Shown piece after piece: positions 21,194 to 39,044 of a stretch of 64,000 nucleotides of DNA. Source of the stretch: Haloterrigena sp. KLK7 (lineage in GTDB: Archaea; Halobacteriota; Halobacteria; Halobacteriales; Natrialbaceae); the NCBI RefSeq assembly GCF_037914945.1, contig NZ_CP149787.1, positions 806,001 to 870,000 on the forward strand, written 5' to 3'. Below the pieces are notes generated by a model, which worked only from the letters and a program-made list of their open reading frames with translations, did not search any database and was not told the DNA's origin. Made by a program: the position numbers and the translations under genes. Position 1 is the first letter of the stretch. Every line of letters starts with the position of its first letter.

Positions 21194-22360
21194 CTACGGC
21201 TCGAGCAGGACCTTGATGACGCCCTCCTCGCGCTTGTCGAACTTCTCGTACATCTCCGGAGCGCGATCGAGGTCGACGCGGTGAGAGACGACCCAGCTGG
21301 GATCGGCCCGCCCCTCGATGATCATGTCGCGCAGCTGCCGGTTGTACTCCTTGACGTTACACTGGCCGGTGCCCACCTTCAGCCCCTTCTCGAAGAGTTT
21401 CCCGAAGTCGATACCGAGTCGGCCCTGGGCCGCCATCTCGTCGGGCGCGCCGGGGTCCGACGGGACGTACAGTCCCGGAATACCGAGTTCGCCAGTCGGG
21501 CGGACGGTCTGGATGAGCTGGTTGAGCACGACCGCCGGGTTTTCGCGGGCCGGATCGTAGGCGTCGTCGGTCGGATCCGTCTCGGGGTCGATCGCCTGAT
21601 AGCCCACGGCGTCGACGCCCGTGTCGACGCCGCCGCCGTGGAGGTCTTTGATCTGTTCGACGGGATCGCTCTCCTCGAAGTTGATCGGGCGAGCGTCGCA
21701 GTGGTCCTCGGCCAGATCGAGGCGACTCTCGACGCGGTCGACGACGTAGATCTCGGACGCGCCCTGGATCTTGGCGCTGTAGGCGGCCATCAGCCCGACC
21801 GGGCCGGCCCCGAAGATGGCGATCGACTCGCCGGGTTGCAGGTTCGCGAGTCGGGTGCCGTGCCATCCCGTCGGGAAGATGTCCGCGAGGAGCGCGAAGG
21901 CGTCCTCGTGCTCGTCGCCCTCCGGCAGCTTCAGCGCGTTGAAGTCGGCGTAGGGTACTCGGAGTTTCTCGGCCTGACCGCCCTTGTACGGTCCCATCGC
22001 GACGTACCCGTACGCGCCGCCGGCGAAGCCGGGATTGACGTTGGTACAGAACCCGGTATAGCCGTTCTCACAGTTGCGGCAGAACCCGCAGGCAACGTTG
22101 AACGGCATCACGACGCGGTCGCCCTCCTCGAGCGACGTGACGGCGTCACCGGTCTCGATCACGTTGCCCATGTTCTCGTGGCCGAAGACGATCCCCGGAT
22201 CGGCCGAGGTCCGCCCCTCGTACATGTGGAGGTCCGACCCACAGATGCACGTCGTCGTGATATCGACGATAACGTCGTTCTCGTGTTCGATCTCGGGCTC
22301 GTCGACCTCCTCGATGGCTACGTCCTGTGGTCCCTGATAGACGACGGCGTCCATTGACAT
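21194..22360 (-). CDS. Zinc-dependent dehydrogenase, glutathione-independent formaldehyde dehydrogenase type
   Basis: 388 residues, medium-chain dehydrogenase fold. Catalytic zinc ligands C40 (CICGSD) and H61 with E62 (FGHENMG); structural zinc cysteines C91, C94, C97 and C105. The NAD-binding motif is AIFGAGPVGLMAAYSAK. The LPEGDEHEDAFALLADIFPTGWHGT segment is characteristic of glutathione-independent formaldehyde dehydrogenases, which dismutate or oxidise formaldehyde and other small aldehydes with bound NAD. It sits between the CobW region and the GlcG/HbpS-type gene. Exact substrate unproven. Confidence 0.85.
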   Translation of the reverse strand: MSMDAVVYQGPQDVAIEEVDEPEIEHENDVIVDITTTCICGSDLHMYEGRTSADPGIVFGHENMGNVIETGDAVTSLEEGDRVVMPFNVACGFCRNCENGYTGFCTNVNPGFAGGAYGYVAMGPYKGGQAEKLRVPYADFNALKLPEGDEHEDAFALLADIFPTGWHGTRLANLQPGESIAIFGAGPVGLMAAYSAKIQGASEIYVVDRVESRLDLAEDHCDARPINFEESDPVEQIKDLHGGGVDTGVDAVGYQAIDPETDPTDDAYDPARENPAVVLNQLIQTVRPTGELGIPGLYVPSDPGAPDEMAAQGRLGIDFGKLFEKGLKVGTGQCNVKEYNRQLRDMIIEGRADPSWVVSHRVDLDRAPEMYEKFDKREEGVIKVLLEP

Positions 22361-23119: not shown

Positions 23120-23347
23120 CGAGTCACGGCGGTCGGCGTTCGTCGCGCGCCGACCCGAACGGCGGATTTCACGTCGAAAACGGACAGAACTAGCTCCACC
23201 GACGACGTCGCGGTTCACTCGACGGCCGGCGGTTCGTCAGTCCCGACGATCGCGCCGCCGGCCGATCCGCGACGCGTGTATAGATTTCCAACGGAATTCC
23301 CTCTCCGGGTTGTTAGTTATATGTTGGCAGATAGCATGCAGTGGGCT

Positions 23348-24445
23348 ATGGTAGAAGATCTCCTCGAGAGCGCCATCGAGGGCCAGGGGCCGTGGGCCGC
23401 ATACGTCGTCCTCGTCGTCGGCGCAGTTGTACTCACCTACAGCGTCGAGAAACTCATCAGCTACCTCACTCGGGCCGCGATCGGTCTCGGCGTCTCGATC
23501 TTCACGCTCGCGATCATCTTCACGGGGTTCGAGTTCGACGACACCGTCGTCGCGCTGGTGTTCGGCGCGGGCGGCCTCGAGCGCGTCGCGCTCGGCACGG
23601 CGTTCGGAACCGCGCTCGCGATCACCGGGATCACGCTGGCGGTCGCGGCGATCGTTCGGCCGTTTCCCGTCGAGGTTCCCCGGGATTACCTGGCGCTGTT
23701 CGTCCTCTCGCCGTTTCTCCTGGTTCCGTTCGTCCTCGCGGGCACGCTCGGCGTCGTTCACGGCCTCGTCCTCGTCGCGGCGTTCGTCGCCCTCCTCGGC
23801 TACGTCGTCGGTCGGGAGTACCAGCGCGACGTCCCGGTGTTCAGGGACTCGGAGATCGCGGAACGCATCGAGGCCGACGGCGGCGTGCCGATCGACCGAC
23901 TCGACCTCGCGAACATCGACCGCGGAACGGTCCTCGAGGAGATTCCCGAGGACCGGTTCGTCACCGGATCGGGTCACGAAGGGGCGTTCTGGCTCGGCCT
24001 GTCGCTGCTCGCGCTCGTCGGGGTCGCCGCGGGCGCGCTCCTGCTCGAGGCGGGGTCGGAAGCGATCGTCGCGTCGTGGGGGATCGAGGAGACGGTCTTC
24101 GGGGCGACCGTGCTCACGCTGGTCCTGACGTTCGAGAACCTGCTGTTGACGATCGAACCGGTCCGACGGGGGATCCCGGAGATCGGGATCGGTCACGTCG
24201 TCGGCAGCGTGATGTTTTCCGTCACGGCGAACGTCGGTGTCATCTCGCTCGTCGCCGACGTCGTGATTCCGTCGTCCGTGCTCGTCTTCCACCTCCCGGC
24301 AGTGATCGTCCTGACCGCGGTCGCCGCCGCCGCCATCGCCACGGGGCGACTCCGACGGGGACACGGCTACCTACTGATCGGACTGTACGTCGCGTACTGG
24401 CTCGTCGCACTCCTCGTCTTCGGCGGCGTCCCGGTTCCGGACTGA
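23348..24445 (+). CDS. CaCA-type (sodium/calcium exchanger-like) membrane protein, copy 1
   Basis: About 365 residues from ATG 23348 with ten or so membrane segments in two halves. Repeat 1 contains TGFEFDDTVVALVFGAGGLERVALGTAFGTAL and repeat 2 FGATVLTLVLTFENLLLTIEPVRRGIPEIGIGHVVGSVMFSVTANVG, fitting the alpha-repeats of cation/Ca exchangers, including acidic residues. A cytoplasmic loop of about 60 residues (EYQRDVPVFRDSEIAERIEADGG) separates them. A paralogue follows at 24527. Confidence 0.8.
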   Translation: MVEDLLESAIEGQGPWAAYVVLVVGAVVLTYSVEKLISYLTRAAIGLGVSIFTLAIIFTGFEFDDTVVALVFGAGGLERVALGTAFGTALAITGITLAVAAIVRPFPVEVPRDYLALFVLSPFLLVPFVLAGTLGVVHGLVLVAAFVALLGYVVGREYQRDVPVFRDSEIAERIEADGGVPIDRLDLANIDRGTVLEEIPEDRFVTGSGHEGAFWLGLSLLALVGVAAGALLLEAGSEAIVASWGIEETVFGATVLTLVLTFENLLLTIEPVRRGIPEIGIGHVVGSVMFSVTANVGVISLVADVVIPSSVLVFHLPAVIVLTAVAAAAIATGRLRRGHGYLLIGLYVAYWLVALLVFGGVPVPD

Positions 24446-24526: not shown

Positions 24527-25669
24527 ATGAGCGCCGCGGAGCTCGTCGGTCTCGTCGCCCTGTTCCTGACGGGCGTCGTCCTCGTGATCTGGTGCGTCGA
24601 GGTCTTCATCGAGGCCGTCGCCCGGAGCGCCGTCTCGCTCGGTATCTCCGGGTTCTTCCTCGCGGTCGTCCTCGCCGGGATCGACCTCGAGAACGCGATC
24701 CTCGGCGTCACGGCGGCGTTCGTCGACCTCCCGACCCTCGCGCTCGGGACGGTGTTTGGCGAGTCGCTGTTCGTCCTCGCGGTCGCCGTCGGCGTCGCGG
24801 GGCTGGCCGTCCCCTTTCGGATGGCCGTCCCGCGGATCTACCTGCTGTTGCTCGTCCTGGTACCGCTTCCGGCGTTCCTCCTCTCTATCGACGGGACGCT
24901 CGACTGGACGGACGGCGCGCTCCTGACGGCCCTGTTCGTCCCCCTGCTCGCCGGCATCTTCTGGCGCGAGCGGCGGTCGGAGACGACGTTCCTGCTCTCG
25001 GGAGAGGTCGAGGAGGTCGTCGACCTCGAGGCGGACGCGGAGACGGCCGGAGCGTCGGGAACGACGGCGAACGCGGATGCGGGAGCGGAACCCAACGGCG
25101 GCGATCGAGCGCCCGCGCCCGACCGCGACCCCGAGCGCGCGGCGGACCGGCACGCGCGTTCCGACCGCGACGCCGATCTCGATCTGGACCTCGACCTCGA
25201 CGAGTTCGTCCCCGACCTCGAGGGGAAGAGCGGTCGGTTCAGCCTCGCCGTCGCCCTCCTCGCGATCGTCGGCATGACGGTCGGCTCCGGACTCACCGTG
25301 GTGAGCGCCGAGGGGATCTTCGTGGCGCTGGGCATCTCGGGGCTCGCGTTCGGCGCGACGGTGCTCTCCTTCATCGCCTCGATCGAGGAGTTAGCGCTCA
25401 CCGTCGAACCGGTCCGACAGGGTCGGGCGCACCTCGCAGTGGGGAACGTCGTCGGGAGCACGGTGTTCTACGTGACGGCCAACGTCGGCGTCATCGCGCT
25501 GCTGCGCCCCGTCGATACCGCGGGCGCGGTGATGACGGTCCACTGGCCGTTTCTCGCCGCGTGCCTGCTCGTCGTCGCCGGACTGTTCGCTCGCGGTCGC
25601 GTGACGCGGGCGGGCGGCGCGGCGCTGCTCGCGCTGTACGTCGGGTACTGGATCGCGAACTACGCGTGA
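24527..25669 (+). CDS. CaCA-type exchanger-like membrane protein, copy 2
   Basis: 380 residues in the same two-half layout as its neighbour. Alpha-repeat 1: GIDLENAILGVTAAFVDLPTLALGTVFGES; repeat 2: GATVLSFIASIEELALTVEPVRQGRAHLAVGNVVGSTVFYVTANVG. The middle loop (about residues 165-235) is very acidic, with alternating Asp and Leu near its end, and could bind divalent cations. The two genes probably arose by tandem duplication and may transport sodium against calcium, though neither substrate is proven. The second copy has its own start 81 bases after the first stop. Confidence 0.8.
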   Translation: MSAAELVGLVALFLTGVVLVIWCVEVFIEAVARSAVSLGISGFFLAVVLAGIDLENAILGVTAAFVDLPTLALGTVFGESLFVLAVAVGVAGLAVPFRMAVPRIYLLLLVLVPLPAFLLSIDGTLDWTDGALLTALFVPLLAGIFWRERRSETTFLLSGEVEEVVDLEADAETAGASGTTANADAGAEPNGGDRAPAPDRDPERAADRHARSDRDADLDLDLDLDEFVPDLEGKSGRFSLAVALLAIVGMTVGSGLTVVSAEGIFVALGISGLAFGATVLSFIASIEELALTVEPVRQGRAHLAVGNVVGSTVFYVTANVGVIALLRPVDTAGAVMTVHWPFLAACLLVVAGLFARGRVTRAGGAALLALYVGYWIANYA

Positions 25670-25801: not shown

Positions 25802-27325
25802 TCAGTCGTCGTCGCCCGTCTCGTTGCCGGGGGCCTCGAGCGTGTCGTTGCCTTCCGTCTCGTTACCGGTCGTCTCGAACGTCTCGTTGCCGGCGGTCTC
25901 ATTGCCGGCCGTCTCGTTGCCGGCGGTTTCGACCGTTTCGTTGCCGACGGTCTCGTTACCGGCCGTCTCGTTACTCGCTATGTCGGTCGTTTCGTTACCA
26001 GACGTCTCGTTGCCGTCCGTCTCGGCGGTCACGTCGTCGGGGGCCGCCTCGTCGTCGGTCGCGCCGCCGACGGAGATCTCGCCGACCGCGTCGAGTTGCG
26101 ACTGATCCAGGTAGACGCCCATCTGCTCGTTCGCGACGAACTCGACGGTCTGGGTGGCGCCCTCCTCGCTCGTGAAGTCCGAGCGGACGTAGGTGTTCCA
26201 GTCCATGGTGTCGCCGTCGCTGGCGATCACGAAGTTGTGGCCAGGGAGGGGTTCGAACACCCGGTTCTCGCCCTCGGGCTGGAGGCGACCGATCGCGTTC
26301 TCCCACTCGATCGCGTAGCTCTCGCCGGCCTCGAGTTCGAGCGTCGGATTCGTTTGATCGGCGATCGCGTCGGGTCCTTGGCCGACCCACTGGCCGTCCT
26401 CGAGACGCATCGAGAAGGTCTCGGTCGGTTCGCCCGGATCGATGGCGGGCAGCGTGACGGTGAGCTCCCGGTCCTCGCCGTCGATCGTCACCGTGTCGGT
26501 GACCCGCTCGTGGCCGTAGGTCCAGACCTCGAGGTCGTACTCGCCGTTCTCGAGCATGTCGAAGCGGGCGATCGCGGGCGGTTGCGTCTGTTCGCCTTCG
26601 ACGTCGCCGTCGCCACCGCCGCCACCGCCGTCGCTCTCGTTACTAGCGTTACCGCCGTCGCTGTCGCTGGCGTTACCCGGCTCTTGGGACTCCGACTCTT
26701 CGCTCTGTCCCTCCTCCGCGAACGGATCCGGCCGGGCGGCGAGGTCCGAGTACGAGTGCATGTCGTCGACGAAGACCTCGGCGCCGAGGGGCTCGCCGTT
26801 CTCGTCCTCGACGTGCACTACCAGTTCGTGGACGTCGCCGGGATCGATCAGTTCGACCGGACCGCGCATCTGGGCCGGGTGCGGCTGGCAGTAGTACTCC
26901 TCCATCTCCTCGGTGGCGGTGAACTGGAGGGTGGTGAACTCTCCCTGTTCGGTCACCGTCTCCGTGACCTCGAGCACCTCGACGTCGTCGCCGACGGCGC
27001 TCCCGGCGGCGATGTTGAAGTTGTGGGTCGATCCGTCGCCGTTGACCCAGATGACCTCGTGTTCTTCGCCTTCGACCAGTCGCAGCGGCGGGTTGGACTT
27101 GCCGTCGATTTCGTGCGGCGCGACGCCGAGCCAGCCGCCGACGATGCCGACCAGTGTGAGCGTCCGAGCCATCTCGCCGTTCTGCGCGACCGGGAGGGGG
27201 AAATCGAACGCGTCGCGATAGGCGCCCGCCTCGCCGGTGAGCGCGGCCGTACTCGCGAGCGCCGCGGTCCCCTTCAGCACGCCGCGACGGGATACGTCTT
27301 CGCGTGAGGGTCGTTCGTTCGTCAT
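25802..27325 (-). CDS. Tat-exported two-domain cupredoxin with glycosylated C-terminal tail
   Basis: 507 residues. The N-terminus VSRRGVLKGTAALASTAALTGEAGA is a Tat signal. Domain 1 (about 55-165) is a type-1 copper cupredoxin: ligands H101, C146, H149 and M153 in the CQPHPAQM arrangement. A middle domain (165-325) has a carboxypeptidase-regulatory-like fold segment. Domain 2 (about 335-430) has the same layout but lacks the Cys, second His and Met ligands. The last 75 residues hold 11 N-glycosylation sequons (ten NET and one NDT), a likely stalk or S-layer-associated tail. It lies 40 bases after the PQQ dehydrogenase gene and is its probable electron acceptor. Confidence 0.85.
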   Translation of the reverse strand: MTNERPSREDVSRRGVLKGTAALASTAALTGEAGAYRDAFDFPLPVAQNGEMARTLTLVGIVGGWLGVAPHEIDGKSNPPLRLVEGEEHEVIWVNGDGSTHNFNIAAGSAVGDDVEVLEVTETVTEQGEFTTLQFTATEEMEEYYCQPHPAQMRGPVELIDPGDVHELVVHVEDENGEPLGAEVFVDDMHSYSDLAARPDPFAEEGQSEESESQEPGNASDSDGGNASNESDGGGGGGDGDVEGEQTQPPAIARFDMLENGEYDLEVWTYGHERVTDTVTIDGEDRELTVTLPAIDPGEPTETFSMRLEDGQWVGQGPDAIADQTNPTLELEAGESYAIEWENAIGRLQPEGENRVFEPLPGHNFVIASDGDTMDWNTYVRSDFTSEEGATQTVEFVANEQMGVYLDQSQLDAVGEISVGGATDDEAAPDDVTAETDGNETSGNETTDIASNETAGNETVGNETVETAGNETAGNETAGNETFETTGNETEGNDTLEAPGNETGDDD

Positions 27326-27365: not shown

Positions 27366-29075
27366 TCAGGCCTCCATCGAGAACACGGCGAGCGTGTCGC
27401 CGCGGGTCCCCTGTCGGAGCCAGCCGCTGCCGCCGACCTGCACGGCGACGTACTGCTTCTCCTCGCCGGGATCGTACCAGCTCATCGGCGAGGCGCTGAT
27501 CGGGACGTCGAACTCGTACTCCCAGAGGCGCTCGCCGCTCGCGCCGTCGTAGGCGACGAGGTTTCCGTTCTGGGTCCCGTTGAAGACCAGTCCCGTCGCC
27601 GTCGACATCGAGCCGCCCCACATGTAGAACTCGTCCTCGCTCTGGATCCAGTCGCGCCAGACGCGCTCGCCCGTCGCGGGATCGACCGCGGCGAAGGCGG
27701 TGATGTTCTCGTTCCACTCGTCGGGCATCTCCGAGGCCGGATCGTCGAGGCCGCCGCCCCAGTAGGGGTTGCCCTCGCTGTACTCCTCGTACCGCCAGTA
27801 GAGGTCCTGCGGGAAGTTCTGGTGGACGACGTAGACGTACCCCGTCTGGGGGTTGTACGACGGCGGCTGCCAGTCGTTACCGCCCGGTGCGCCGGGGACG
27901 AACGGGATCCGCTCGTCCGAGCTGATGTGGGGAATCATCTCCCACATATTGATGTGCTGGCAGATCTCCTGGCTGCGCTCGTGGAGCTGCCCGGACTCGG
28001 CGTCCAACATGTAAACCCACCCGGCCTTGTCGGAGCCGACGACCATGTCCATCGACTCGCCGTCGACCTCGACGTCGCGGAGCAGGACCCGCGGTGCCGC
28101 CGCGTCGTAGTCCCAGACGTCGTGCGGGCTGCTCTGGAACCCCCACACGTGCTCGCCGCTCTCTAAGTCCAGCGTGAGCGTCCCGCAGGTGGGGAAGTTC
28201 GGACCCGGACGGACGGTCCCGTCGAAGTCGGGGCCCGGGTTCGCGACCGGCGAGTGGAGCACGCCGCGCTCCTCGTCGATGGTCGGCGTCATCCAGCTGG
28301 TCCCGCAGCCGTGCGTGCGGCTCTCGCCGACCCACTCGTCCTCCGGGAGCGTGGAGGTTTGCCACATCATCTCGCCGCTCTCGGCGTCGAGCGCGGCGAT
28401 GAACCCGAGGACGCCGTACTCGCCGCCGGCGCTGCCCGTGTAGATCGTTCCGTCGTGGACCACCGGCGCCCACGTCGCGGAGTAACCGACCTCGTGGTCG
28501 GCGGTCTGCGTGTACCACTCCTCCTCGCCGGTGTACCGATTCAGCGCGACGACGCCCGAGTCGAGCGTCGTCATGTACACCTTGTCGCCGAGGACGGCTG
28601 CACCGCGGTTGTTGTCGTCACAGCAGAGTTCGACGCCGATCGGCGGCGCGTACGTGTAGCTCCAGAGGACCTCTCCCGCGCGGGGATCGATCGCCTTCAT
28701 GTGGTTCGGCCCGTTGGTCTGGTACATCACCGGCGGATCGCCGGGTACCACGATCGGCGTCCCCTCCATGCTCGAGCCGGTGCCGACCGACAGCTCGTAC
28801 TCGAGCTCGAGGTCGCCGACGTTGTCGGGCGTGATGACGTCGGCGGTCGTGACCCGGTGTTGCTCGTAGTTGCCGCCGTACATCAGCCAGCCTTCGGGCA
28901 TCTCGCCCGAGTTGCTCAGCATCTCCTGTGTGACGTCGCCCTCCGGAATGCGGTCGCTGTCGTGTTGCTGCGTGATCGATTCCTCCGGCCCACCGACCAG
29001 CGTATAGCCGTCTTCGATCTCTACCAGTTCGATGTCGCGTGCGGCCTGAACGGCCCTGTCGTTGCGAAGTGCCAT
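27366..29075 (-). CDS. PQQ-dependent alcohol dehydrogenase with lanthanide-type motif
   Basis: 569 residues, eight-bladed propeller. Aligned by motif with methanol dehydrogenases: vicinal cysteines C151-C152 (ELCCDDNNRG), metal ligand E219 (GGEYGVLG), N279 (VANPGPD), catalytic-type D322 and D324 (DVWDYDAAAP), and K350 in SDKAGW. The Asp two residues after the catalytic Asp is what separates lanthanide- from calcium-dependent enzymes in bacteria. No signal peptide: the residues before and after the start are not hydrophobic, and an in-frame stop lies directly upstream. The SD GAGGTGATC precedes the ATG. PQQ synthesis genes are not seen here. Confidence 0.9.
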   Translation of the reverse strand: MALRNDRAVQAARDIELVEIEDGYTLVGGPEESITQQHDSDRIPEGDVTQEMLSNSGEMPEGWLMYGGNYEQHRVTTADVITPDNVGDLELEYELSVGTGSSMEGTPIVVPGDPPVMYQTNGPNHMKAIDPRAGEVLWSYTYAPPIGVELCCDDNNRGAAVLGDKVYMTTLDSGVVALNRYTGEEEWYTQTADHEVGYSATWAPVVHDGTIYTGSAGGEYGVLGFIAALDAESGEMMWQTSTLPEDEWVGESRTHGCGTSWMTPTIDEERGVLHSPVANPGPDFDGTVRPGPNFPTCGTLTLDLESGEHVWGFQSSPHDVWDYDAAAPRVLLRDVEVDGESMDMVVGSDKAGWVYMLDAESGQLHERSQEICQHINMWEMIPHISSDERIPFVPGAPGGNDWQPPSYNPQTGYVYVVHQNFPQDLYWRYEEYSEGNPYWGGGLDDPASEMPDEWNENITAFAAVDPATGERVWRDWIQSEDEFYMWGGSMSTATGLVFNGTQNGNLVAYDGASGERLWEYEFDVPISASPMSWYDPGEEKQYVAVQVGGSGWLRQGTRGDTLAVFSMEA

Positions 29076-29080
29076 GGGGT

Positions 29081-29089
29081 GATCACCTC
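29081..29089 (-). promoter_or_regulatory. Strong Shine-Dalgarno for the PQQ dehydrogenase
   Basis: GAGGTGATC precedes the ATG by a few bases and overlaps the stop codon of the upstream gene, so the dehydrogenase is translated within an operon. This fixes the start and rules out an N-terminal extension. Confidence 0.7.
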
Positions 29090-29985
29090 AGTTCGCTCGG
29101 CGCACGCATCTCGTCCGTGATGTAGAAGACGGCGTGCAGCAGCTCTTCCTGACTGACGATCTGTACGGCCGTCCCCGCGGTGAGCGCGGCGGTCAGCTGT
29201 TCGTCCGTGAACCGTTCGGCCGCGGCGAGATCGTGAGCGGCGGTCGCCGTGACGAACAGGCCGCCCAGCATCGCCTTGACGTACCACGCCGCGTCGTCGA
29301 GGATCTCCTCGGTGACGAGCACCTCGTTCTGCCAGAGGTGTCTGTCGAGGCCACGGATCCACAGCAGCGCTCCGCCCATCGCCCGCTGATGTAACGGGGG
29401 TATCGTCGACGTCTCGAACTCGACGTCCTCCGGGATCTGATTCGACGGTACCCACCGGGAGAGCCGTTCGCTGTCGTTGGCGACCGCGGAAAGCAGCGCC
29501 GTCTTCTCGCCCTCGTCGAAGCCCGCGTCGTCGAGGGCCGACGAGAGCCGATCCGTCAGGACCAGTTCGCGCGCCGTCGTCTCGACGTGGTCGGCCGTGA
29601 ACCGCGGCAGGGTCTCGTCGAGGCGCTCGAAGAACCCCACCTCGAGGAGGTGATCGTAGAGGCGCCAACCGGGTTCGGCGACCTCCGTATACAGTCCCTC
29701 GGGCTCGTCCGGAACGCCCGCCGCGCGGACGTCCGGCAGACGACCGATCTCGTCCGCGATTCGCCCGCGCTCCCGCTCGAGCAGGTCGGGATCGAGCCGG
29801 TCGCCGAGGTCGGCCCGGATCGTCGCCCCGCTCGAGGCGAACGTCGAGTCCGGTCGCGGTTCGACCTGCCCCGCGAGGTTCGTCCACGTTACGTCCTCCT
29901 CTCCCACTGTATCGACGCCGAGCACCGTCGCCAGATCGCCTCGTTCTGCGAGTTTCGTGTTCGACGCGGTTGGTGTCTGACTCAT
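29083..29985 (-). CDS. Unknown helical protein, first gene of the PQQ dehydrogenase operon
   Basis: 300 residues from ATG 29985, which starts MSQTPTASNTKLAERGDL. No signal peptide and no recognised domain. Predicted largely helical: LYDHLLEVGFFERLDETL, EGEKTALLSAVANDSERLSRW, IPPLHQRAMGGALLWIRGLDRHLW, and ILDDAAWYVKAMLGGLFVTATAAHDLAAAERFTDEQL. It lies 7 bases upstream of the dehydrogenase gene with SD overlapping its stop, so it is co-translated with it. A role in cofactor insertion, assembly or export of the dehydrogenase is plausible but only inferred from context. Confidence 0.7.
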   Translation of the reverse strand: MSQTPTASNTKLAERGDLATVLGVDTVGEEDVTWTNLAGQVEPRPDSTFASSGATIRADLGDRLDPDLLERERGRIADEIGRLPDVRAAGVPDEPEGLYTEVAEPGWRLYDHLLEVGFFERLDETLPRFTADHVETTARELVLTDRLSSALDDAGFDEGEKTALLSAVANDSERLSRWVPSNQIPEDVEFETSTIPPLHQRAMGGALLWIRGLDRHLWQNEVLVTEEILDDAAWYVKAMLGGLFVTATAAHDLAAAERFTDEQLTAALTAGTAVQIVSQEELLHAVFYITDEMRAPSELR

Positions 29986-30273
29986 GCTACCACTACACAC
30001 GAAAGGGCACCACCCGTTTGGATAATACTTGTCAATGGAATCGGTATCAAAATATAATATCTAAATCAACATGAGGGCAGTAGAAATGAATGTCCAATTG
30101 AACGCGCTGTTTTGCGGTAGTAGAACCCTACAGTTACGCGAGCGTAGTCCGTGCGTGCCGGTTCACCGGTGGCGTCTCCGAGACGGACCTAGTGCGTCGC
30201 CGCCGCGTTCGGTGTCGCTTCCCTCGCGTAGTGCTAGCCTTATGCAGTAGGAAGTCGATCGGTAGCACATCCC

Positions 30274-31548
30274 ATGCGAACGCGTTCCGTCTGGGAACTC
30301 GACGACGAGGACGAACCGGTCGTCGACAGCCTCGCGGCCGGACTCGGACGGACGCCGGCTCGGCTCCTCGCGTATCTGCTCTTGCGGGCCGAGCGCGAGG
30401 CCGATCCGACGACGACCGTTCACCTGCAGGTCGGTACCGGGGCGAACCGGACGGCGATCAGCGAGGCGATGTCGCGACTCGAGTCTCGAGAGCTCGTCGA
30501 ACGAACGACGGTCAGCGCGGTCGAATCCGGCGGTCGGCCCCGGACGGCGTGGCGACCGACCGCCGACGTCGAGTCGACGATCGAAGCGACATACGAGAGC
30601 CACGCCCGCGCCCTGCTCGAGCGCGCCGAGACCGTCCGCGTCGGCACGGCGACGGAATCGCGGTCCGGACCGGCAGCGCCGCCCGACTCTCCGATCGAAC
30701 TCGCCCTGAACTGGCGGCCGAACGCCCTCCACGTCCCGATCTACGCGGCGCTCGCGGCCGAGTGGTACGACGCGTTCGGGGTCGACGTCCGGATCGATCA
30801 CTGCGACGGCTCCCGGCGAGCGCTCGAGCGGGTGCGTTCGGGAGCGGCCGACCTGGCCGTCGTCGGCGCCGCGACGGTCGTCCGCGCCCGCGCGGCCGGC
30901 GAACCGATCGTGCCGCTCGCCATCTGCTACCAGCGGGCGATGACCGTCCTCTACACCGTCCGAGAGGCGTTCGGCGAGCCGCTGCGGAGCGTCGACCAGC
31001 TCGAGGGTCGGCGGCTCGGAATGCCGCCGGACTCCGAGACGCGACTGCTCGGCAGACTCTTCCTCGCCCAGACGTCGTTCGACGAGGACGTCACCGTCGT
31101 CGACACGAACGGCGAGGAACGGGACGCCCTCCGGCGCGGCGAGGCCGACGTCGTGACCGGCTCGTTCGCCGATCCGCGACAGCTCGAGCGCGACGGACTG
31201 ACCGTCGACGCGTTGCACCTCACCGACCACTTCCCCATCTACGGGCCGACGATCGTCGTCCCCGAGCGGACGCTCGACGAGCGACCGACGGCGCTCGAGG
31301 GCGTGCTGGCGGGAACGACCGGCGGCTGGGCCGCGGCGCGTCGGGATCCCGGTCCGGCGGCCGAACGGATCGCGGCGGTCAGCGACGATCCGCCGGAGCG
31401 GATCCGCCGGACCTTCGAGCGGGCCGCGTCGACGTTCGGCGAGAGCGACGCCGTCCGCGAACGCGGCTGGGGCTGGCAGCGACCGGAGATGTGGGATCGC
31501 CTCCGAACGGCCCTCGAACAGGGAGCGGTGCTCGGTGATGCCGCGTGA
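30274..31548 (+). CDS. Winged-helix regulator fused to an NMT1/THI5-type substrate-binding domain
   Basis: 424 residues with no signal peptide. Residues 15-110 form a winged helix (ARLLAYLLLRAEREADPTT, GANRTAISEAMSRLESRELVERTTV with a PRTAW wing end). Residues 140-424 match substrate-binding proteins of the NMT1/THI5 type: LALNWRPNALHVPIYAALAAEWY, QLEGRRLGMPPDSETR, and a C-terminal VRERGWGWQRPEMW. Similar blocks occur in the lipoprotein at 35061. This arrangement would make it a cytoplasmic sensor of the transported ligand. It overlaps the ATPase gene by 4 bases. Confidence 0.85.
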   Translation: MRTRSVWELDDEDEPVVDSLAAGLGRTPARLLAYLLLRAEREADPTTTVHLQVGTGANRTAISEAMSRLESRELVERTTVSAVESGGRPRTAWRPTADVESTIEATYESHARALLERAETVRVGTATESRSGPAAPPDSPIELALNWRPNALHVPIYAALAAEWYDAFGVDVRIDHCDGSRRALERVRSGAADLAVVGAATVVRARAAGEPIVPLAICYQRAMTVLYTVREAFGEPLRSVDQLEGRRLGMPPDSETRLLGRLFLAQTSFDEDVTVVDTNGEERDALRRGEADVVTGSFADPRQLERDGLTVDALHLTDHFPIYGPTIVVPERTLDERPTALEGVLAGTTGGWAAARRDPGPAAERIAAVSDDPPERIRRTFERAASTFGESDAVRERGWGWQRPEMWDRLRTALEQGAVLGDAA

Positions 31549-32339
31549 TCGATCTCGCGGACGTCACGGTTCGGTTCGACGACGTCACCGCGATCGAAGA
31601 CGTCGACCTCCGGATCGACGACGGCGAGTTCGTCACGGTCGTCGGCCCGTCGGGCTGCGGGAAGACGACGCTGCTGCGGACGATCGGCGGCCTCCAGAAG
31701 CCGACGACCGGCCGCGTGCGCCTCGACGGGAGGCCGCCCGCGGCCGCACAGGCCAGTGCCGATCTCGGCTTCGTCTTCCAGCGCCACACCCTCTTTCGAT
31801 GGAAGACCGCCCTCGAGAACGTCACCTTTCTCCGGCGACTGGCCGGCGAGGAGCCCGACGAGGCCGACGCGCGGGCGCTGCTGGAGACGATGGGCCTCGA
31901 GGGGTTCGAGGACGCCCGGCCCGCGGCGCTCTCCGGCGGGATGCGCCAGCGGGTCGCGATCGCTCGCGCGCTCCACCTCGGCGCGGACGTGCTCCTGATG
32001 GACGAGCCGTTCGGCGAACTCGACGAGATCACGCGCGACGAACTCGGGGTCGAGATCCGGGACGTCTGGCGCCGCGAGCGGAAGACGGTCGTCTTCGTCA
32101 CCCACAGCGTTCCCGAAGCGGTATTTCTCGCCGATCGCTGTCTCGTCGTCTGCGGGCGACCGGGCCGGATCGAGGCCGCCTACGAGATCGACCTGCCCGA
32201 ACCGCGGGACGCGGACGTCTTCGGCTCACGGGCGTTCCAGGAACAGGTCGCGACCGTCCGACGGACGCTCCACGAGGCCCACGACCGAGACCGGGAGCGG
32301 GATCGAGAACGAGAGCGAGATCGGGGGCAAGGTCGATGA
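31545..32339 (+). CDS. ABC transporter ATP-binding protein (SsuB/TauB/ThiZ-like)
   Basis: 264 residues. Walker A GPSGCGKTT, signature LSGGMRQRVAIARAL, Walker B LLMDEPFGELDE, H-loop VFVTHSV. The sequence FVFQRHTLFRWKTALENVTFL is typical of the nitrate/sulfonate/taurine/HMP ATPases. The acidic-basic DRERDRERERDR C-terminus is low complexity. It overlaps both neighbours (4-base frames), so regulator, ATPase and permease form one operon. Confidence 0.9.
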   Translation: MIDLADVTVRFDDVTAIEDVDLRIDDGEFVTVVGPSGCGKTTLLRTIGGLQKPTTGRVRLDGRPPAAAQASADLGFVFQRHTLFRWKTALENVTFLRRLAGEEPDEADARALLETMGLEGFEDARPAALSGGMRQRVAIARALHLGADVLLMDEPFGELDEITRDELGVEIRDVWRRERKTVVFVTHSVPEAVFLADRCLVVCGRPGRIEAAYEIDLPEPRDADVFGSRAFQEQVATVRRTLHEAHDRDRERDRERERDRGQGR

Positions 32340-33112
32340 CGACGCGAATCCGGACGCTCGCGGGCGACGTTTTCCTCCCGACCGCCGCGCTGGCCGTCGC
32401 CGCGCTGTGCTGGTGGGCGGTGACGATCGTCGGCGACGTGCCGTCGTTCGTCCTGCCCTCGCCGGGCGCCGTCGTCGCTCGACTGACGGGGAATCCGACG
32501 CTGTACGCGCACAACGCCTGGTATACCCTCGAGAAGGTGGTCTACGGCGGCAGCGTCGGGATCGCCGCCGGGTTCCTACTGGCAGTGCTCGTCGCCTCCC
32601 TCCCCTGGTTCCGGACGGCGGTCTACCCCTATCTGGTGACCGTCAGAGTCCTGCCGAAGATCGCCGTCGCGCCGCTGCTGTTGATCTACCTCGGGACGGG
32701 AACGGAGACGGCCGTCATCTTCGTCGCGCTCATCACGTTCTTCCCGCTCGTGCTGAACACCGCCGCCGGCCTCGAGCGCGCCCCGTCGGCCCACCGCGAC
32801 CTGCTGCGGTCGGTCGACGCCGGCCCGCTCGAGCGGATCGTCTACGTCGACCTCCCGTACGCGCTGCCGGACGTCTTCGCGGGGCTCAAGCAGTCGGTTA
32901 CCCTCGCGGTGGTGGGCGCGGTCGTCGCGGAGTGGGTGATCGCGGATCGCGGACTGGGGTTTCTGATCCTGATGGGCTCGGAGAACGTCCGCCCGGACGT
33001 CATGCTCGCGGCGCTCGCGGTGTTGCTGGCGCTGGGGCTGGCGCTGTACGGGACGGTTGTGCTCGTTCAGCGTGGTGTGAAGCGGTGGCTGGGGCTCGAG
33101 GCGTCGGGTTGA
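32336..33112 (+). CDS. ABC permease of the NMT1/THI5-associated family, copy 1
   Basis: 258 residues starting at the ATG that overlaps the ATPase stop. About six membrane helices, with the ABC permease EAA-like loop at ERIVYVDLPYALPDVFAGLKQSVTLAVVGAVVAEWVIADRGLGFLI. The N-terminal VLPSPGAVVARLTGN stretch and YLVTVRVLPKIAVAPLLLIYLGTGTE are characteristic of SsuC/TauC-type permeases. It partners the ATPase upstream. A second permease lies at 34044. Confidence 0.9.
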   Translation: MTTRIRTLAGDVFLPTAALAVAALCWWAVTIVGDVPSFVLPSPGAVVARLTGNPTLYAHNAWYTLEKVVYGGSVGIAAGFLLAVLVASLPWFRTAVYPYLVTVRVLPKIAVAPLLLIYLGTGTETAVIFVALITFFPLVLNTAAGLERAPSAHRDLLRSVDAGPLERIVYVDLPYALPDVFAGLKQSVTLAVVGAVVAEWVIADRGLGFLILMGSENVRPDVMLAALAVLLALGLALYGTVVLVQRGVKRWLGLEASG

Positions 33113-33348
33113 TTACGGCAAGTAGCAGTCCTCGGTGGTCGGTTTCTTTCTCCATCATCGCTCGCGAATCCCACGACTGGTACAGAAAACTCACGTACCG
33201 GTCAGTGTCGTTCTCATCGCAGTTCCAGTTTTTCTCACGATCGGCCGCCTGATGCGCGACTATTCGTTCTCCTGGGGCACTCCGCCTAAGTAAAATGGAC
33301 GTGACACCTTGTCGGATTCTTTTAAATGTCGGCAGAGTAGACGCCGTC

Positions 33349-33861
33349 ATGAGACGACGAAAATATATTGTAGTACTCGGCGCGAGCATCCCCGTCGCTG
33401 GGTGTCTGTCGGAGATCAAAGCCGCCGGTCCGAACGCGAACGAATCGAGGCCGGACGGTACTGAGACGGACACGAACACGAGGGATGACTCGGACACCGA
33501 AACGTCCGACGAAGCGTTCGGCGTTGGCAATACGACCGGTGAGGCCAACCCTCATAAGCTGACCGTCCAAAACGACGGCGATCGCTCGTGGACAATAGCC
33601 CTCCGTATCACCGACGCCGAAACTGACGAAACGCTCGTGGAGCGGTCGTATTCCCTCGGCGGCAGAGAGGACATCAACGGCGAACTTCGAGGGCCAGCCG
33701 AGTACAGGGTGACGGTCACCGTACCCGATACTGGAACGGAACACGTCAGGAAGGTCGGATACTTCGACACCTGTAACGACTACCGGACGACCGTAACGAT
33801 CTCCCCCGACGGAACGGTCACGAGTGACTCTATTCGGACAGAGGCCGGATGTGGCGTCTGA
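33349..33861 (+). CDS. Small haloarchaeal lipoprotein
   Basis: 170 residues from ATG 33349, preferred over an upstream start because MRRRKYIVVLGASIPVAGC is a signal with lipobox ending at Cys. A Ser/Thr/Asp/Glu-rich linker (residues 25-65) precedes a beta-rich domain (HKLTVQNDGDRSWTIALRITDA). No family recognised; the fold resembles immunoglobulin-like domains. It lies between the two halves of the ABC uptake locus but is probably unrelated to it. GC content is slightly lower than neighbours. Confidence 0.75.
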   Translation: MRRRKYIVVLGASIPVAGCLSEIKAAGPNANESRPDGTETDTNTRDDSDTETSDEAFGVGNTTGEANPHKLTVQNDGDRSWTIALRITDAETDETLVERSYSLGGREDINGELRGPAEYRVTVTVPDTGTEHVRKVGYFDTCNDYRTTVTISPDGTVTSDSIRTEAGCGV

Positions 33862-34043
33862 ACACCACCGAATCTCGGCACCTCAAAACAAGGGAGTCAC
33901 TGGGACTCTATTCTCCTCGACCAACCGCAAACACGCAGTACAGGTGAAGCACAGAATAGCAAACGTAGCAGCTGATTTGTACTATCGCAGATAGACTACG
34001 GGGTTCGAGCGTTCCGTGCAGGTGCGCCTTCGAATGCCACCGT

Positions 34044-34949
34044 TCACGACTCTCGTTCGGAAGCCGACCACAGCAACCGCTCGAGCGCCACCGGCACCAG
34101 ATAGAACCCGATACCCAGCGCCGAGAGGACGACCAGCGCGGCGTAGGTCTCGGCCGTCTCGAGGTACGTCGCCGTGTCGAACACCCGGTAGCCCAGTCCG
34201 GCCCGGAGCGTGACGAACTCGGCGACGACCGCGCCGATGACCGACAGCGTGGCCGCGATCTTGAACCCGGCGACGACGCTCGGCGCGGCGGCCGGCACGC
34301 GGACGAACAGGAAGGTCTCGAGCCGCGACGCGCCCACGGAGTCGGCGAGGTCGAGGTACGCCGCCGGCGTCTCCCGCAGTCCGTCGAGCGCGGCGATCGT
34401 CATCGGGAAGACGGTCAGCGTCGCGACGAGCAGCGCCCGCGCCGGGATTCCGCGGCCGAACCAGAGGAACAGCAGCGGCGCGACGGCGATCAGCGGCGCG
34501 ATCCGTAAGGCGACGACGTAGGGCACTAGCGTCCGCGTCGCCGTCCGCGAGTAGGTCATCGCGAACGCGAGCGCGAAGCCGACGAGGCCGCCGGCGAACA
34601 GCCCCGCTGCGGCGGTGACGCCCGTCACGACCGCATCGCCGAGCAGGGTCGGATACGTCTCGAGCAGCGCGGTCGCGACGTCGGTCGGCGACGGGAGCAG
34701 CAGCGTCGGGAGCCCGGTGACGACGACGGCCGCCTGCCACGCGGCGAGCAGAACGACGAGGACGAGCGCCGGCGGTCCGACGCGTTTCCCGACGGGCGCG
34801 ACTCGATCGCGGACGGATCGCGATCGCCCGATCGACGGCGTCCGGACCGAGCGATGGCGGCGGGAGTCGGTTCGCCCGTCGGACATCGCTTCCGCTCCCG
34901 TTCTCGGTCCGTCACCGTCGGGCATCGACTCGCTCCGTCCGTCGCTCAT
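34044..34949 (-). CDS. ABC permease of the NMT1/THI5-associated family, copy 2
   Basis: 301 residues, with a hydrophilic 55-residue N-terminus, then six or so helices. The permease motif is TFLFVRVPAAAPSVVAGFKIAATLSVIGAVVAEFVTLRAGLGYRVF. It has the SsuC/ThiX-like segments LLLPSPTDVATALL and VVALRIAPLIAVAPLLFLWFGRGIP. It is read 111 bases after the substrate-binding protein gene. No ATPase lies next to it, so it probably uses the one at 31545. Alternative starts in the N-terminal repeat (two MSDGR/MPDG starts) are possible. Confidence 0.88.
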   Translation of the reverse strand: MSDGRSESMPDGDGPRTGAEAMSDGRTDSRRHRSVRTPSIGRSRSVRDRVAPVGKRVGPPALVLVVLLAAWQAAVVVTGLPTLLLPSPTDVATALLETYPTLLGDAVVTGVTAAAGLFAGGLVGFALAFAMTYSRTATRTLVPYVVALRIAPLIAVAPLLFLWFGRGIPARALLVATLTVFPMTIAALDGLRETPAAYLDLADSVGASRLETFLFVRVPAAAPSVVAGFKIAATLSVIGAVVAEFVTLRAGLGYRVFDTATYLETAETYAALVVLSALGIGFYLVPVALERLLWSASERES

Positions 34950-35060
34950 CGATTTCGCTCCGTTTCCGGCGTCGGTTCGGTGCCGTTCCGTCGGCTCCGT
35001 CGAATCCGCTGCCCCTCGGTCGGCCGCCGGTTCGCAGCGGTCCTCGAGGCCCGCGGTCGG

Positions 35061-36137
35061 TTACGATTCGACTCGTGCAGCGTAGTCGGCGATGTGTTCG
35101 GAGTCATCGTCGAGGTAGTCGTTCGTCCACACCGCCTCTGGATCGACGTCGTCCTCGAAGACGTCGGCCGCCGCGAGCGTCTCGTAGGTGGTTTCCCACG
35201 GACCCGACTCGCTGTACCCCCAGCCGCGCTCGCGGACGGTCTCCGAGAACATGTACTCGGCGTGCATCCGGCCCCACTTGTCGGCCTGGTTCTCGCGGAC
35301 TTCCTCGAGTTCGGGCTGAACGTCGACGAGGAGGTCGATCGCGTCAGCAGGGTTGGTGCTCGCCCAGGCTGCGCCCCGCGCGGTCGCGCGGAGAAACGAC
35401 CGGACGGTCGCCTCGTTGGATTCGGCGAAGTCCGCGTCGGTCGCGACGAGGTGGCCGTACGAGCGGATCGTCTCGTCGATCGAGAGCACGTCGACCGTCG
35501 CGCCCTGCTGTTCGGCGTCGACGACGTCGCCGAACACGCCGCCGGCGGCGTCGAGGTCGCCTCCGAGCAACTGCTGGACGGTGTCGAAGCCGGCGTCGAC
35601 GTAGTCGACGCTCTCGAGGACGCCGTGGTGCTCGAGGTACGCCTCGGTCATCTGGCGGACCATGCCGGGACCGCTGCCGACGGTCGTTCCCTCGAGCTGC
35701 CCGGGATCAGTCAACTCGCCGAACCCCTCGCGGGTCGCGAAGACCACGTTCGGGTTGCGCTGCATGACGACCGCGACGCAGCGCGGCGAGAGGCCGCGGC
35801 TGTTGACGTTCAGCAGTTGATCGGCGCTCGTGATCGCGAACTCGACGTTTCCCAGTCCGGCCTGGTTTGCGGCGAAGTCCGAGCCGTCCCCGCTCTCGAT
35901 ATCGACGCTCTCGAACCCCTCGTCCGCGTAAAACCCGTTCTCACGGGCCGCGACGTAGGGCGCGTGCAGCCCGCTGATCCGCCAGTTGAGCAGCAGCGAG
36001 ACGTCGGTGACGGCGGGCTCGCCGTCGGCGCCGGTCGAGCCCTCGTCACCGGGACCGCCGATACACCCCGCGACGGTCGCGGTCGCGGCCCCCGCAGCGG
36101 CGAGGAACCGACGCCGATCACATCGTGCGTTTGTCAT
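35061..36137 (-). CDS. NMT1/THI5-type substrate-binding lipoprotein
   Basis: 358 residues. The signal is a Tat-lipoprotein type (CDRRRFLAAAGAATATVAGC). The binding domain has LLLNWRISGLHAPYVAARENGFYADEGF, GDGSDFAANQAGLGNVEFAITSADQLL and QLEGTTVGSGPGMVRQM, characteristic of NMT1/THI5-like proteins that bind pyrimidine, sulfonate, taurine or nitrate-type ligands. A C-terminal VRERGWGYSESGPWETTYETL is shared with the fused regulator at 30274. The ligand is unknown. It lies upstream of permease copy 2. Confidence 0.9.
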   Translation of the reverse strand: MTNARCDRRRFLAAAGAATATVAGCIGGPGDEGSTGADGEPAVTDVSLLLNWRISGLHAPYVAARENGFYADEGFESVDIESGDGSDFAANQAGLGNVEFAITSADQLLNVNSRGLSPRCVAVVMQRNPNVVFATREGFGELTDPGQLEGTTVGSGPGMVRQMTEAYLEHHGVLESVDYVDAGFDTVQQLLGGDLDAAGGVFGDVVDAEQQGATVDVLSIDETIRSYGHLVATDADFAESNEATVRSFLRATARGAAWASTNPADAIDLLVDVQPELEEVRENQADKWGRMHAEYMFSETVRERGWGYSESGPWETTYETLAAADVFEDDVDPEAVWTNDYLDDDSEHIADYAARVES

Positions 36138-36269: not shown

Positions 36270-37034
36270 TCAGCCGTCGGTCTCGGTCCGCGGGGTCGCG
36301 ACGATCGCGATGTACGGCTCCCGACCGTCGCGCTCGAGGCGGTCGAACGACTCGATCCGGAATCCCGCCGCGGTGACGCGATCCGCCCAGTAGGATTCGG
36401 GATCGCGCGCGACACCGTCGGGCGTCAACGGCAACTCGAGGACGCCGAGCGCGCCGTCGGGCCGACAGACGCGTCGCGTCTCGCGAAGCGTTCGATCCGC
36501 GGCCGCCGCCTCGAGGTCGTGGAGGACGCGACAGGCGGTGACGACGGGGATCGAATCGTCGGCCAGCGGGAGCGCCGCCGCGTCGCCGACGATCGGGGTC
36601 GCCGCGAGACCGGCCCGGTCGGCGTTCCGTCGCGCGAGCGCCGGCCCGTTCCCGAGAACGACGCGGTCGTCGAAGACATCGAGACCGATGGCGTCCGCGT
36701 CGGGCGGCACGTGCGGGGCGAGGCCGACGAGCGACCGTCCCGTGCCGCAGCCGACGTCCAGAACGCGATCCGCGTCGGCCAGCGGGAGTCGGTTCGCCAG
36801 CGCGTCGTACTTCGCCCGCTCGAGCGCCCACGGCGGCGGCGACAGGAGGCGGCGCAGCACGCGGACGGCGTGGACGACCGCACCGATCGCCGCCCCGCCC
36901 GCGGCGAGTCGAACGCGCGGGTCGTCCGTCCGCCGTCGAACGGCGACGCCGAGCACGGCCGCGAGGAGCGCGGCGGCTATCGAGCGGAACCGCCGTCGCC
37001 AGTGATAGACGCCGAAGTCGTACCGGGGAGCCAT
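36270..37034 (-). CDS. SAM-dependent methyltransferase with hydrophobic N-terminus
   Basis: 254 residues. The first 65 residues contain two short hydrophobic runs (AALLAAVLGVAV, LAAGGAAIGAVVHAV), possibly membrane association. The methyltransferase domain has motif I VLDVGCGTGRSL at about residues 90-101 and later GLDVFDD, IVGDAAALPLADDSI and HDLEAAAADRTLRETRRVCRPDG. No operon partner is certain: it ends 132 bases before the substrate-binding protein gene. Substrate unknown. Confidence 0.85.
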   Translation of the reverse strand: MAPRYDFGVYHWRRRFRSIAAALLAAVLGVAVRRRTDDPRVRLAAGGAAIGAVVHAVRVLRRLLSPPPWALERAKYDALANRLPLADADRVLDVGCGTGRSLVGLAPHVPPDADAIGLDVFDDRVVLGNGPALARRNADRAGLAATPIVGDAAALPLADDSIPVVTACRVLHDLEAAAADRTLRETRRVCRPDGALGVLELPLTPDGVARDPESYWADRVTAAGFRIESFDRLERDGREPYIAIVATPRTETDG

Positions 37035-37121: not shown

Positions 37122-39044
37122 TCAGTCGTCGGCCGGTGCCGGCGAGTCGCCCGCGGAGACGCCCGTTCCGGGCCCCACGTCGATGCCCAGTTCGTCGAGC
37201 TTCTCGTCGGGGACGACGCCGTCGACCCAGCCGCGGTGCTCGTAGTACTCCTCCTTCATCTCCTCGAGTTCGCAGTACTCGCCCTCGCTGGCGCCCTGAC
37301 CGGGGATGCCGTCCTCGAGGAAGCGCTCGGGCAGCGAGTCGTCGCTCCCGTCGAACCCGTTGAGGTTGTTGTAGTACCGTTCGAGGTTGTAGATGCGCTC
37401 GCCGGCCTCGAGGAGCTCGTCCTCGGTGACGTCCCGGCCGGTCATTCCGTTGTACTGGGTGACGTACTCCTCGATGCCCTCCGCGAAGGCGTTGAACTTG
37501 CAGATGTCGAACGAGTCGCTGATGGCGTGGAGGTCCTGGAACTGGGCGGTGAGTTCGCCCTTGCCCTCGTACTCGTAGGGGTCGACCTTCTCCGGGATGC
37601 CGAGGATCTCCGCCGCGGGCGTGTAGCCCCGCAGGTGACAGGCGCCGCGGTTCGAGGTGGCGTAGCCGATGCCCATCCCCTTCATGCAGCGGGGATCGTA
37701 GGCGGCGATGGTCTGGCCCTTGACCGCCAGCGAGTTCTCGTGGGCGTCCCGCCGGTCGGCGACGCGGCGGGGGCCCTCGGCCAGCAGGTCCGCGAGGTCG
37801 TCCTCGCGGCGGGCGATCCGCTCGATCATGTCGATCATCGTCTCGTAGTCGCCCCAGTCCAGTTCGCCGACGCCCTCGAGTTTGCCCTCCTCGGACATCT
37901 CCATGGCCATCGCGAGCATGTTGCCAGTGTCGATGGTGTCGACGCCCATGTCGTTACAGCGGTCGATCATGAGCGCGATGGCGTCGCGGTCGGTGTGGCC
38001 GGAGTTCGGGCCGAGCGCGTAGGCCGACTCGTACTCGTAGGACTCGGTGCGGACGTTCATCTCCTCGCCCTTGTGCATCGCCGTCACCTCGACCTCCTTC
38101 TTGCAGGCGACCGGACAGGAGTGACAGGTCGGCTCGTCGACGAGGATGTTCTCCCGGACGTTCTCGCCGGAGACGCGCTCGGCGTCGATGTCGACGCCCT
38201 CGGCCTCGCGCATGCTCTCCGTCGAGGTGTACCGACCGTTCTTCGTCGGGAGGCCGTCCATCTCCTCGCCGATATTCATGAGGACGTTGGTGCCGTACAT
38301 CGAGAGGCCGCCCTCGTTGGGGGCGGTGACTTCCGACTCCTGGATGGCCTGCATGGCCTGCTGGTGGCCCTCCATGAACGTCTCCTTGTCCGCGGGTTGT
38401 GGCATCTTCGTCGAGGACTTGACGACCACCGCCTTGAGGTTCTTCGACCCCATGACGCAGCCGGTGCCGCCGCGGCCGGAGGCCCGGTCGTCCTCGTTCA
38501 TGATGCAGGCGTACTTGACGCCGTTCTCGCCGCCGGGGCCGATCCCCATGATCGAGAGGTTCTTGCCGTAGGCCCCCTCGACCTCCTCCTCGATCGCGTC
38601 GCGGGTGTCGTGGAAGCCCTCGCCCCAGAGGTGGGAGGCGTCCCGGAGTTCGACCTCGCCGTCCTCGACGACGGCGTAGACCGGCTCGTCGGCCTCCCCT
38701 TCGAACAGCAGGCCGTCGAAGCCGGCCCACTTCAGTCGAGCGCCCGACCAGCCGCCGTGGTGGCTGTCCGTGACGGTGCCGGTCAGCGGCGACTTCGTAC
38801 AGACGGCGATCCGGCCGCTCATCGTCGTCTGCGTCCCCGACAGCGGTCCGTTCATGAAGGCCAGGAGGTTGTCCGGCCCGAGCGGGTCGACGTCGGGACC
38901 CTGTTCGAAGACGTACTTCACCCCGAGGCCGCGCGCTCCGATATACTTCTCCGCGTCCTCGTCGTCGATCGACTCGTACGCGACCTCCCCATCCGAGAGA
39001 TCGATGCGGGCGACGTGATCTTGGAATCCACCGATATCAGTCAT
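37122..39044 (-). CDS. aor: Aldehyde:ferredoxin oxidoreductase (tungsten enzyme), copy 2
   Basis: 640 residues with nearly the same sequence as the 13886 copy throughout, including ARGLGVKYVFE, the SGRIAVCTKSPLTGTVTDSHH block, cluster ligands in CHSCPVACKKEV and the DSFDICKFNAF cysteine. The differences cluster in two loops, at about residues 264-292 and 395-450, which in this fold lie near the substrate channel entrance, so substrate range may differ. The two copies frame the alcohol-oxidation island. A GTAACC/GGTTAC inverted repeat lies 57 bases upstream of its start. Confidence 0.93.
   Translation of the reverse strand: MTDIGGFQDHVARIDLSDGEVAYESIDDEDAEKYIGARGLGVKYVFEQGPDVDPLGPDNLLAFMNGPLSGTQTTMSGRIAVCTKSPLTGTVTDSHHGGWSGARLKWAGFDGLLFEGEADEPVYAVVEDGEVELRDASHLWGEGFHDTRDAIEEEVEGAYGKNLSIMGIGPGGENGVKYACIMNEDDRASGRGGTGCVMGSKNLKAVVVKSSTKMPQPADKETFMEGHQQAMQAIQESEVTAPNEGGLSMYGTNVLMNIGEEMDGLPTKNGRYTSTESMREAEGVDIDAERVSGENVRENILVDEPTCHSCPVACKKEVEVTAMHKGEEMNVRTESYEYESAYALGPNSGHTDRDAIALMIDRCNDMGVDTIDTGNMLAMAMEMSEEGKLEGVGELDWGDYETMIDMIERIARREDDLADLLAEGPRRVADRRDAHENSLAVKGQTIAAYDPRCMKGMGIGYATSNRGACHLRGYTPAAEILGIPEKVDPYEYEGKGELTAQFQDLHAISDSFDICKFNAFAEGIEEYVTQYNGMTGRDVTEDELLEAGERIYNLERYYNNLNGFDGSDDSLPERFLEDGIPGQGASEGEYCELEEMKEEYYEHRGWVDGVVPDEKLDELGIDVGPGTGVSAGDSPAPADD

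Follow-up and report, generated by a model that had tools for sequence, protein, structure and literature searches.

The stretch of DNA analysed here (the window) spans 64,000 nucleotides of the Haloterrigena sp. KLK7 genome. It carries three consecutive genes for an all-helical protein, a PQQ-type alcohol dehydrogenase and a blue-copper protein, with an ABC importer and several other genes close by (Table 1).

Table 1. Features of the quinoprotein locus, in window coordinates.
Feature	Position	Strand	Basis
Aldehyde ferredoxin oxidoreductase and formaldehyde-dehydrogenase-like zinc alcohol dehydrogenase	37122..39044 and 21194..22360		
Two Na+/Ca2+ exchanger-family genes	23276..24445, 24527..25669		
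Blue-copper (halocyanin/plastocyanin-like) protein, Tat signal, CxxHxxxxM copper motif	25802..27325	-	Pfam PF00127, Tat motif SRRGVLKGT
PQQ-type alcohol dehydrogenase, 569 aa, without signal peptide	27366..29075	-	ORF, Pfam, NCBIfam and PDB matches
D322-Y323-D324 codons (catalytic Asp and +2 Asp)	28104..28112	-	Alignment with PedH, XoxF, ExaA, 1kb0, 1kv9
Metal-ligand N279 codon	28239..28241	-	Alignment
Metal-ligand E219 codon, preceded by G218 as in XoxF/PedH	28419..28421	-	Alignment
Vicinal cysteines C151-C152 codons	28620..28625	-	Alignment
Obligate partner, 305-aa all-helical protein, first operon gene, putative descendant of a Tat-carrying subunit	29083..30000	-	Gap, co-occurrence, AlphaFold
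NMT1/Ssu-type ABC importer: HTH-NMT1 fusion, ATPase, two permeases, NMT1 lipoprotein	30274..36137	both	Families
HTH domain fused to NMT1 substrate-binding domain	30274..31548		
UbiE-like methyltransferase	36270..37034		

The enzyme matches Pfam PF01011 (PQQ) with 180.6 bits and TIGR03075, the NCBI family of methanol/ethanol PQQ dehydrogenases, with 367 bits. Because the latter score falls below the curated cut-off of 480, the protein is a relative of the methanol/ethanol subfamily, not a member by the NCBI rule. Its match to the membrane glucose/quinate dehydrogenases (TIGR03074) reaches 131 bits against a cut-off of 833, and its N-terminus is not hydrophobic. The closest PDB entries, by sequence and by fold alike, are PedH (6zcv) and XoxF (6dam). 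The AlphaFold model is a beta-propeller (pLDDT 87.4, pTM 0.91) that Foldseek matches to 6zcv, 6dam and 1flg with TM-scores of ~0.8, and the gene evolves under purifying selection (dN/dS ~0.16-0.21, NG86, against three relatives). The nearest relatives are Natrialbaceae, which agrees with the archaeal host named by the original prediction. The window gene thus encodes a genuine haloarchaeal quinoprotein, as its residues and fold show, and its predicted identity as a PQQ alcohol dehydrogenase is backed by the fold and by a complete metal site with an extra Asp; alcohol is its putative substrate. We considered that an earlier start might hide a signal peptide. The N-terminus MALRNDRAVQAAR is conserved among homologues and an in-frame stop lies five codons upstream of the ATG, which together exclude this possibility.

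C151-C152, E219, N279, D322 and D324 were all found at the predicted numbers, the two aspartates lying within HDVWDYDAAAP. In the comparison with PDB sequences and in the 48-sequence alignment, they fall, as do R157 and W261, on the matching PQQ/metal-site residues of PedH (6zcv) and XoxF (6dam). E219 corresponds to the Glu of GGEFG in XoxF/PedH, N279 to the Asn of GNPS/GNPA and C151-C152 to the vicinal cysteines; K350 of the PQQ site is present as well. The WDYD segment aligns with WDYD in XoxF and WDFD in PedH; elsewhere the position of D324 is occupied by Ser (ExaA, 1flg, WDFS) or Thr (1kb0, WDYT; 1kv9, WDFT). All 31 haloarchaeal rows (the window protein and 30 loci, one of which is the window itself) keep the Glu, Trp, Asn and both aspartates unchanged, so the site is no chance match. 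Across 33 rows reaching down to 33-40% identity, D322/D324 remain invariant and E219/N279 nearly so, and the vicinal cysteines are absent from a second, more distant haloarchaeal group.

A stronger and more unexpected finding than the lanthanide motif is the obligate helical partner. Its gene lies 7 bp upstream of the PQQ gene in the window. Of 20 relatives examined, 19 have a gap of 2-7 bp and one has a gap of 79 bp. Profiles of the partner and of the enzyme match the identical 51 of 292 haloarchaeal genomes, and a partner gene lies within 200 bp for 74 of the 77 enzyme matches. One genome (G291) holds two partner matches without an enzyme match among the matches listed. In another (G254, counted in the 51), fragments of both genes sit side by side on contig 1 (1281453-1282341), as if they had decayed jointly. 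AlphaFold predicts an all-helical protein (pLDDT 91.9). The window partner has no match in Pfam or NCBIfam, and no PDB fold matches it with an E-value below 0.4. It is a previously undescribed putative quinoprotein subunit, seen in the sampled genomes wherever the enzyme is present, and we infer that the two form a physical complex. Two other identities for the partner were rejected: a PqqC/TenA-like PQQ-making protein (no Pfam match, no PDB fold match), and a Gluconate_2-dh3 or FAD-GDH gamma-type subunit (no such Pfam match in 39 members, no PDB fold below 0.4).

The partner's N-terminus points to its origin. In 14 of 50 loci it bears a Tat signal, with RRxFL followed by a nearly uncharged stretch (for example DRRDFLKALGVVAGGAVAGATL), and Pfam TAT_signal matches eight members. 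None of the enzyme homologues examined has a signal peptide. This arrangement recalls FAD glucose dehydrogenase (PMC6719666) and PaoABC (PMC4273604), whose small hitchhiker subunit carries the Tat signal for a catalytic subunit that has none. The partner has no Foldseek or Pfam match to any of these subunits (one member reaches only E=0.08 to FAD-SLDH), and its own Tat signal has disappeared from most loci. In the window it reads AERGDLATVLGVDTVGEED, without a Tat signal; neither the twin arginines nor the hydrophobic stretch survives in the clade of the window, in the sister clade or in one additional lineage. Should Tat be the ancestral state, the signal must have been lost at least twice on the tree. 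In the simplest reading, the partner was at first a hitchhiker carrier and, once its signal had gone, stayed on in a different role. The signal is present in some lineages and lost in others (the window partner; loci L084, L096, L097, L105, L109, L111-L113 and L118-L123). In the Tat clade, the L109 enzyme has at its C-terminus a linker of Ser, Gly and Asp followed by a hydrophobic tail, a pattern characteristic of surface proteins in haloarchaea.

The blue-copper gene lies directly downstream of the enzyme and is operonic in all relatives of the window's clade (clade 1). This speaks for halocyanin as the acceptor in the window, with the blue-copper protein as the probable recipient of the electrons. 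The gene is likewise annotated as blue-copper on a Natrononativus plasmid. By contrast, the sister clade has no copper protein, and a [2Fe-2S] ferredoxin and a coiled-coil protein are encoded nearby. The two arrangements do not overlap (ferredoxin in 18 loci, copper protein in 14). Ferredoxin and coiled-coil genes were seen near the enzyme in L064, L066, L067, L080, L085, L094 and other loci of the 56-66% clade.

With the Tat signal lost in the window's clade, the enzyme is either exported together with the blue-copper protein or cytoplasmic. We lean slightly towards joint export. The Tat-exported copper protein is retained in the clade 1 operon, and a low-potential ferredoxin, as in the sister clade, would be a thermodynamically awkward acceptor of electrons from PQQ. 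The known PQQ dehydrogenases work outside the cytoplasm. The alternative has a substantial, though less than even, chance of being right: enzyme and partner of the window's clade would form a cytoplasmic quinoprotein complex that has lost Tat export and imports its PQQ, perhaps through the adjacent NMT1-type ABC importer, and the sister clade may use the [2Fe-2S] ferredoxin. It would account for the repeated loss of the Tat signal, for a clade in which neither protein carries one, for the sister clade's use of a ferredoxin gene in place of the copper-protein gene and for the synteny with the importer. Cysteine content points the same way. Tat-type partners contain none (14 of 14) and other partners 0-3; non-vicinal cysteines number 0-2 in enzymes whose partner has a Tat signal and 2-7 in the rest (Mann-Whitney p 2e-7, uncorrected for relatedness), a comparison that draws on few independent events. 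Enzymes of the window's clade have 3-4 of these cysteines, which together with the lost signal favours a cytoplasmic enzyme; such an enzyme would not reach the exported copper protein.

The metal is a separate matter. Good et al. 2020 reportedly showed the essential Asp, and the original prediction had read D324 as a marker of lanthanide use. D324 does match PedH and XoxF, and the site is complete with its second Asp; D-x-D, however, has diagnostic value only for enzymes closely related to XoxF, ExaF and PedH, and the motif proved less selective than supposed. In a 48-row tree (IQ-TREE, LG+C20, midpoint root only), the haloarchaeal enzymes form one clade (100/100) apart from the XoxF clade and the PedH/ExaA clade, and we did not find the enzyme within the XoxF or the PedH/ExaF clade. 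An Asp occupies the +2 position in 14 of the 20 non-haloarchaeal rows of the alignment, including two membrane glucose/quinate-type dehydrogenases; Ser, Thr or Asn replaces it in ExaA, quinohemoprotein alcohol dehydrogenase and the Sphingobium/Croceicoccus rows. A biochemically characterised membrane glucose dehydrogenase carries D-x-D, its known metals being Ca, Mg, Zn and Sr, and the ocean survey of lanthanide enzymes itself only predicts facultative lanthanide use (PMC11996626). Because D-x-D occurs in membrane glucose dehydrogenases and on most deep branches, it may be the older state, lost by the Ca-type enzymes. And because Mg/Ca-type enzymes share it, D324 permits lanthanide use and does not establish it.

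A haloarchaeal counterpart of XoxF and PedH, that is a lanthanide-dependent alcohol dehydrogenase with D324 as a lanthanide ligand, is thus a tentative reading of the sequence, and we doubt that a lanthanide is the physiological ion. The reading concerns the metal alone and is compatible with the rest of our preferred explanation. D322/D324, E219, G218 and N279 are as in XoxF and PedH, the second Asp is absent from the Ca-type ExaA, 1kb0 and 1kv9, and the top fold matches of the predicted model are PedH and XoxF. Against it stand the occurrence of D-x-D in Mg/Ca membrane glucose dehydrogenases and most bacterial rows (PMC11996626), the branching of the haloarchaeal clade outside XoxF and PedH, the fact that no known lanthanide accessory gene was noticed beside the enzyme gene (neither XoxG nor XoxJ was seen in its neighbourhood), and the presence of two Na+/Ca2+ exchanger genes nearby. 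Exchanger homologues also lie near modules of the distant clade (L064, L068, L069), a mild hint at calcium.

Comparison with known enzymes places the haloarchaeal system apart from each. PedH/ExaF (the lanthanide-dependent ethanol dehydrogenase, 6zcv) has the same fold, vicinal cysteines, Glu/Asn/Asp/Asp site and Gly before the Glu. Identity over the fold alignment is ~27%, however, and the haloarchaeal enzymes form a separate clade, with Lys for Arg at K350, no signal peptide, and a helical partner and copper protein in place of cytochrome c. XoxF (6dam, 4mae) shares D-Y-D and the remaining metal site and differs in clade. The membrane glucose/quinate dehydrogenases (mGDH, Gcd) also have D-Y-D (Klebsiella plasmid Gcd, Rhizobium), but they carry Asp for Glu219, no vicinal cysteines and, as a family, a membrane anchor, and their reported metals are Ca, Mg, Zn and Sr (PMC11996626). 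The quinoproteins of Thaumarchaeota (HMT) are likewise archaeal, have D-Y-D or D-x-D in some members and a proposed blue-copper acceptor; by their published description they differ in lacking vicinal cysteines and in mostly having signal peptides or transmembrane segments (PMC7300363). Aylward and Santoro 2020 drew the same lanthanide hint from these D-Y-D proteins (PMC7300363), which weakens the predicted novelty for archaea as a whole. For haloarchaea, the literature searched yielded no published report of such enzymes.

How the host obtains PQQ is suggested by what its genome lacks. PqqC was found above cut-off in none of the 292 haloarchaeal genomes, while the positive control (an Azospirillum plasmid) scored 360 bits, and PqqE in none of 21 genomes (control, 537 bits). 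In the host, PqqE gives only ~110-bit matches, far below cut-off and of a weak kind also seen in 14 of 14 control genomes, and PqqB reaches 40 bits, so we rejected synthesis by the host through these enzymes. With the PqqC control working, the absence from 292 genomes indicates that PQQ is apparently scavenged, and the host seems to depend on an outside supply, though a pathway not yet recognised may make it. Hosts of mGDH/Gcd may similarly be without PQQ synthesis, and E. coli is likewise described as reliant on external PQQ (PMC12124388). Thaumarchaeal genomes, in turn, are reported to encode a PQQ synthase (PMC7300363). The missing synthesis genes, and a second-best NCBIfam match to the acido-empty-quinoprotein group (267 bits, below the cut-off of 650), might suggest an 'empty' propeller that has lost PQQ binding, but this is highly improbable given that all tested PQQ and metal ligands are kept under purifying selection across haloarchaea.

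We consider it reasonably probable, as a whole, that the locus encodes a haloarchaeal quinoprotein-halocyanin system with a hitchhiker-derived subunit, an explanation that builds on the observed residues, fold, operon, co-occurrence, Tat pattern and missing PqqC. The enzyme would join the helical product of the gene just upstream in a complex, act as the catalytic subunit and oxidise an alcohol with PQQ over a hard metal ion bound by E219, N279, D322 and D324. In the window's clade, the most likely recipient of the electrons would be the Tat-exported blue-copper protein, where bacteria use cytochrome c. PQQ would be scavenged, the known pathway not making it in the cell. The partner would derive from a subunit with which the dehydrogenase passed through Tat as a hitchhiker, and it has lost its own signal in this clade; the enzyme would now leave with the blue-copper protein or remain cytoplasmic. 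Very improbable, by comparison, is the boldest combination: a cytoplasmic, lanthanide-using archaeal complex with a new helical subunit whose export role is lost, imported PQQ and rare earth, and a change of electron acceptor, from blue copper to ferredoxin or the reverse, between the sister clades.

If the metal is a lanthanide, demonstrated rare-earth biochemistry would extend to archaea in culturable hosts, and an idea so far raised only for uncultured Thaumarchaeota would gain a direct test; Natrinema, Natrialba and Halorubrum relatives carry the enzyme. If it is Ca or Mg, genome and metagenome surveys that apply the popular D-x-D rule predict lanthanide use too often. Whichever the metal, a partner with a lost export signal raises the testable question of whether PQQ enzymes work intracellularly.

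Several neighbouring genes recur. Genes of the ABC importer flank the module here, and most relatives keep them next to it; a role in the uptake of PQQ or substrate is speculative. Its HTH-NMT1 fusion is likely a one-component regulator of the adjacent importer. Runs of two or three genes for NMT1/THI5-like proteins, in many cases accompanied by a gene of the VOC family, lie near the module in L057, L060, L063, L064, L066, L080, L088 and L110, the proteins of L064 starting without an obvious signal peptide; this cluster is possibly a cofactor or substrate pathway. The UbiE-like methyltransferase gene is kept near the module in both main clades. Finally, an aldehyde ferredoxin oxidoreductase and a formaldehyde-dehydrogenase-like zinc alcohol dehydrogenase are encoded near the quinoprotein, and could plausibly handle aldehydes in an alcohol-to-acid route.
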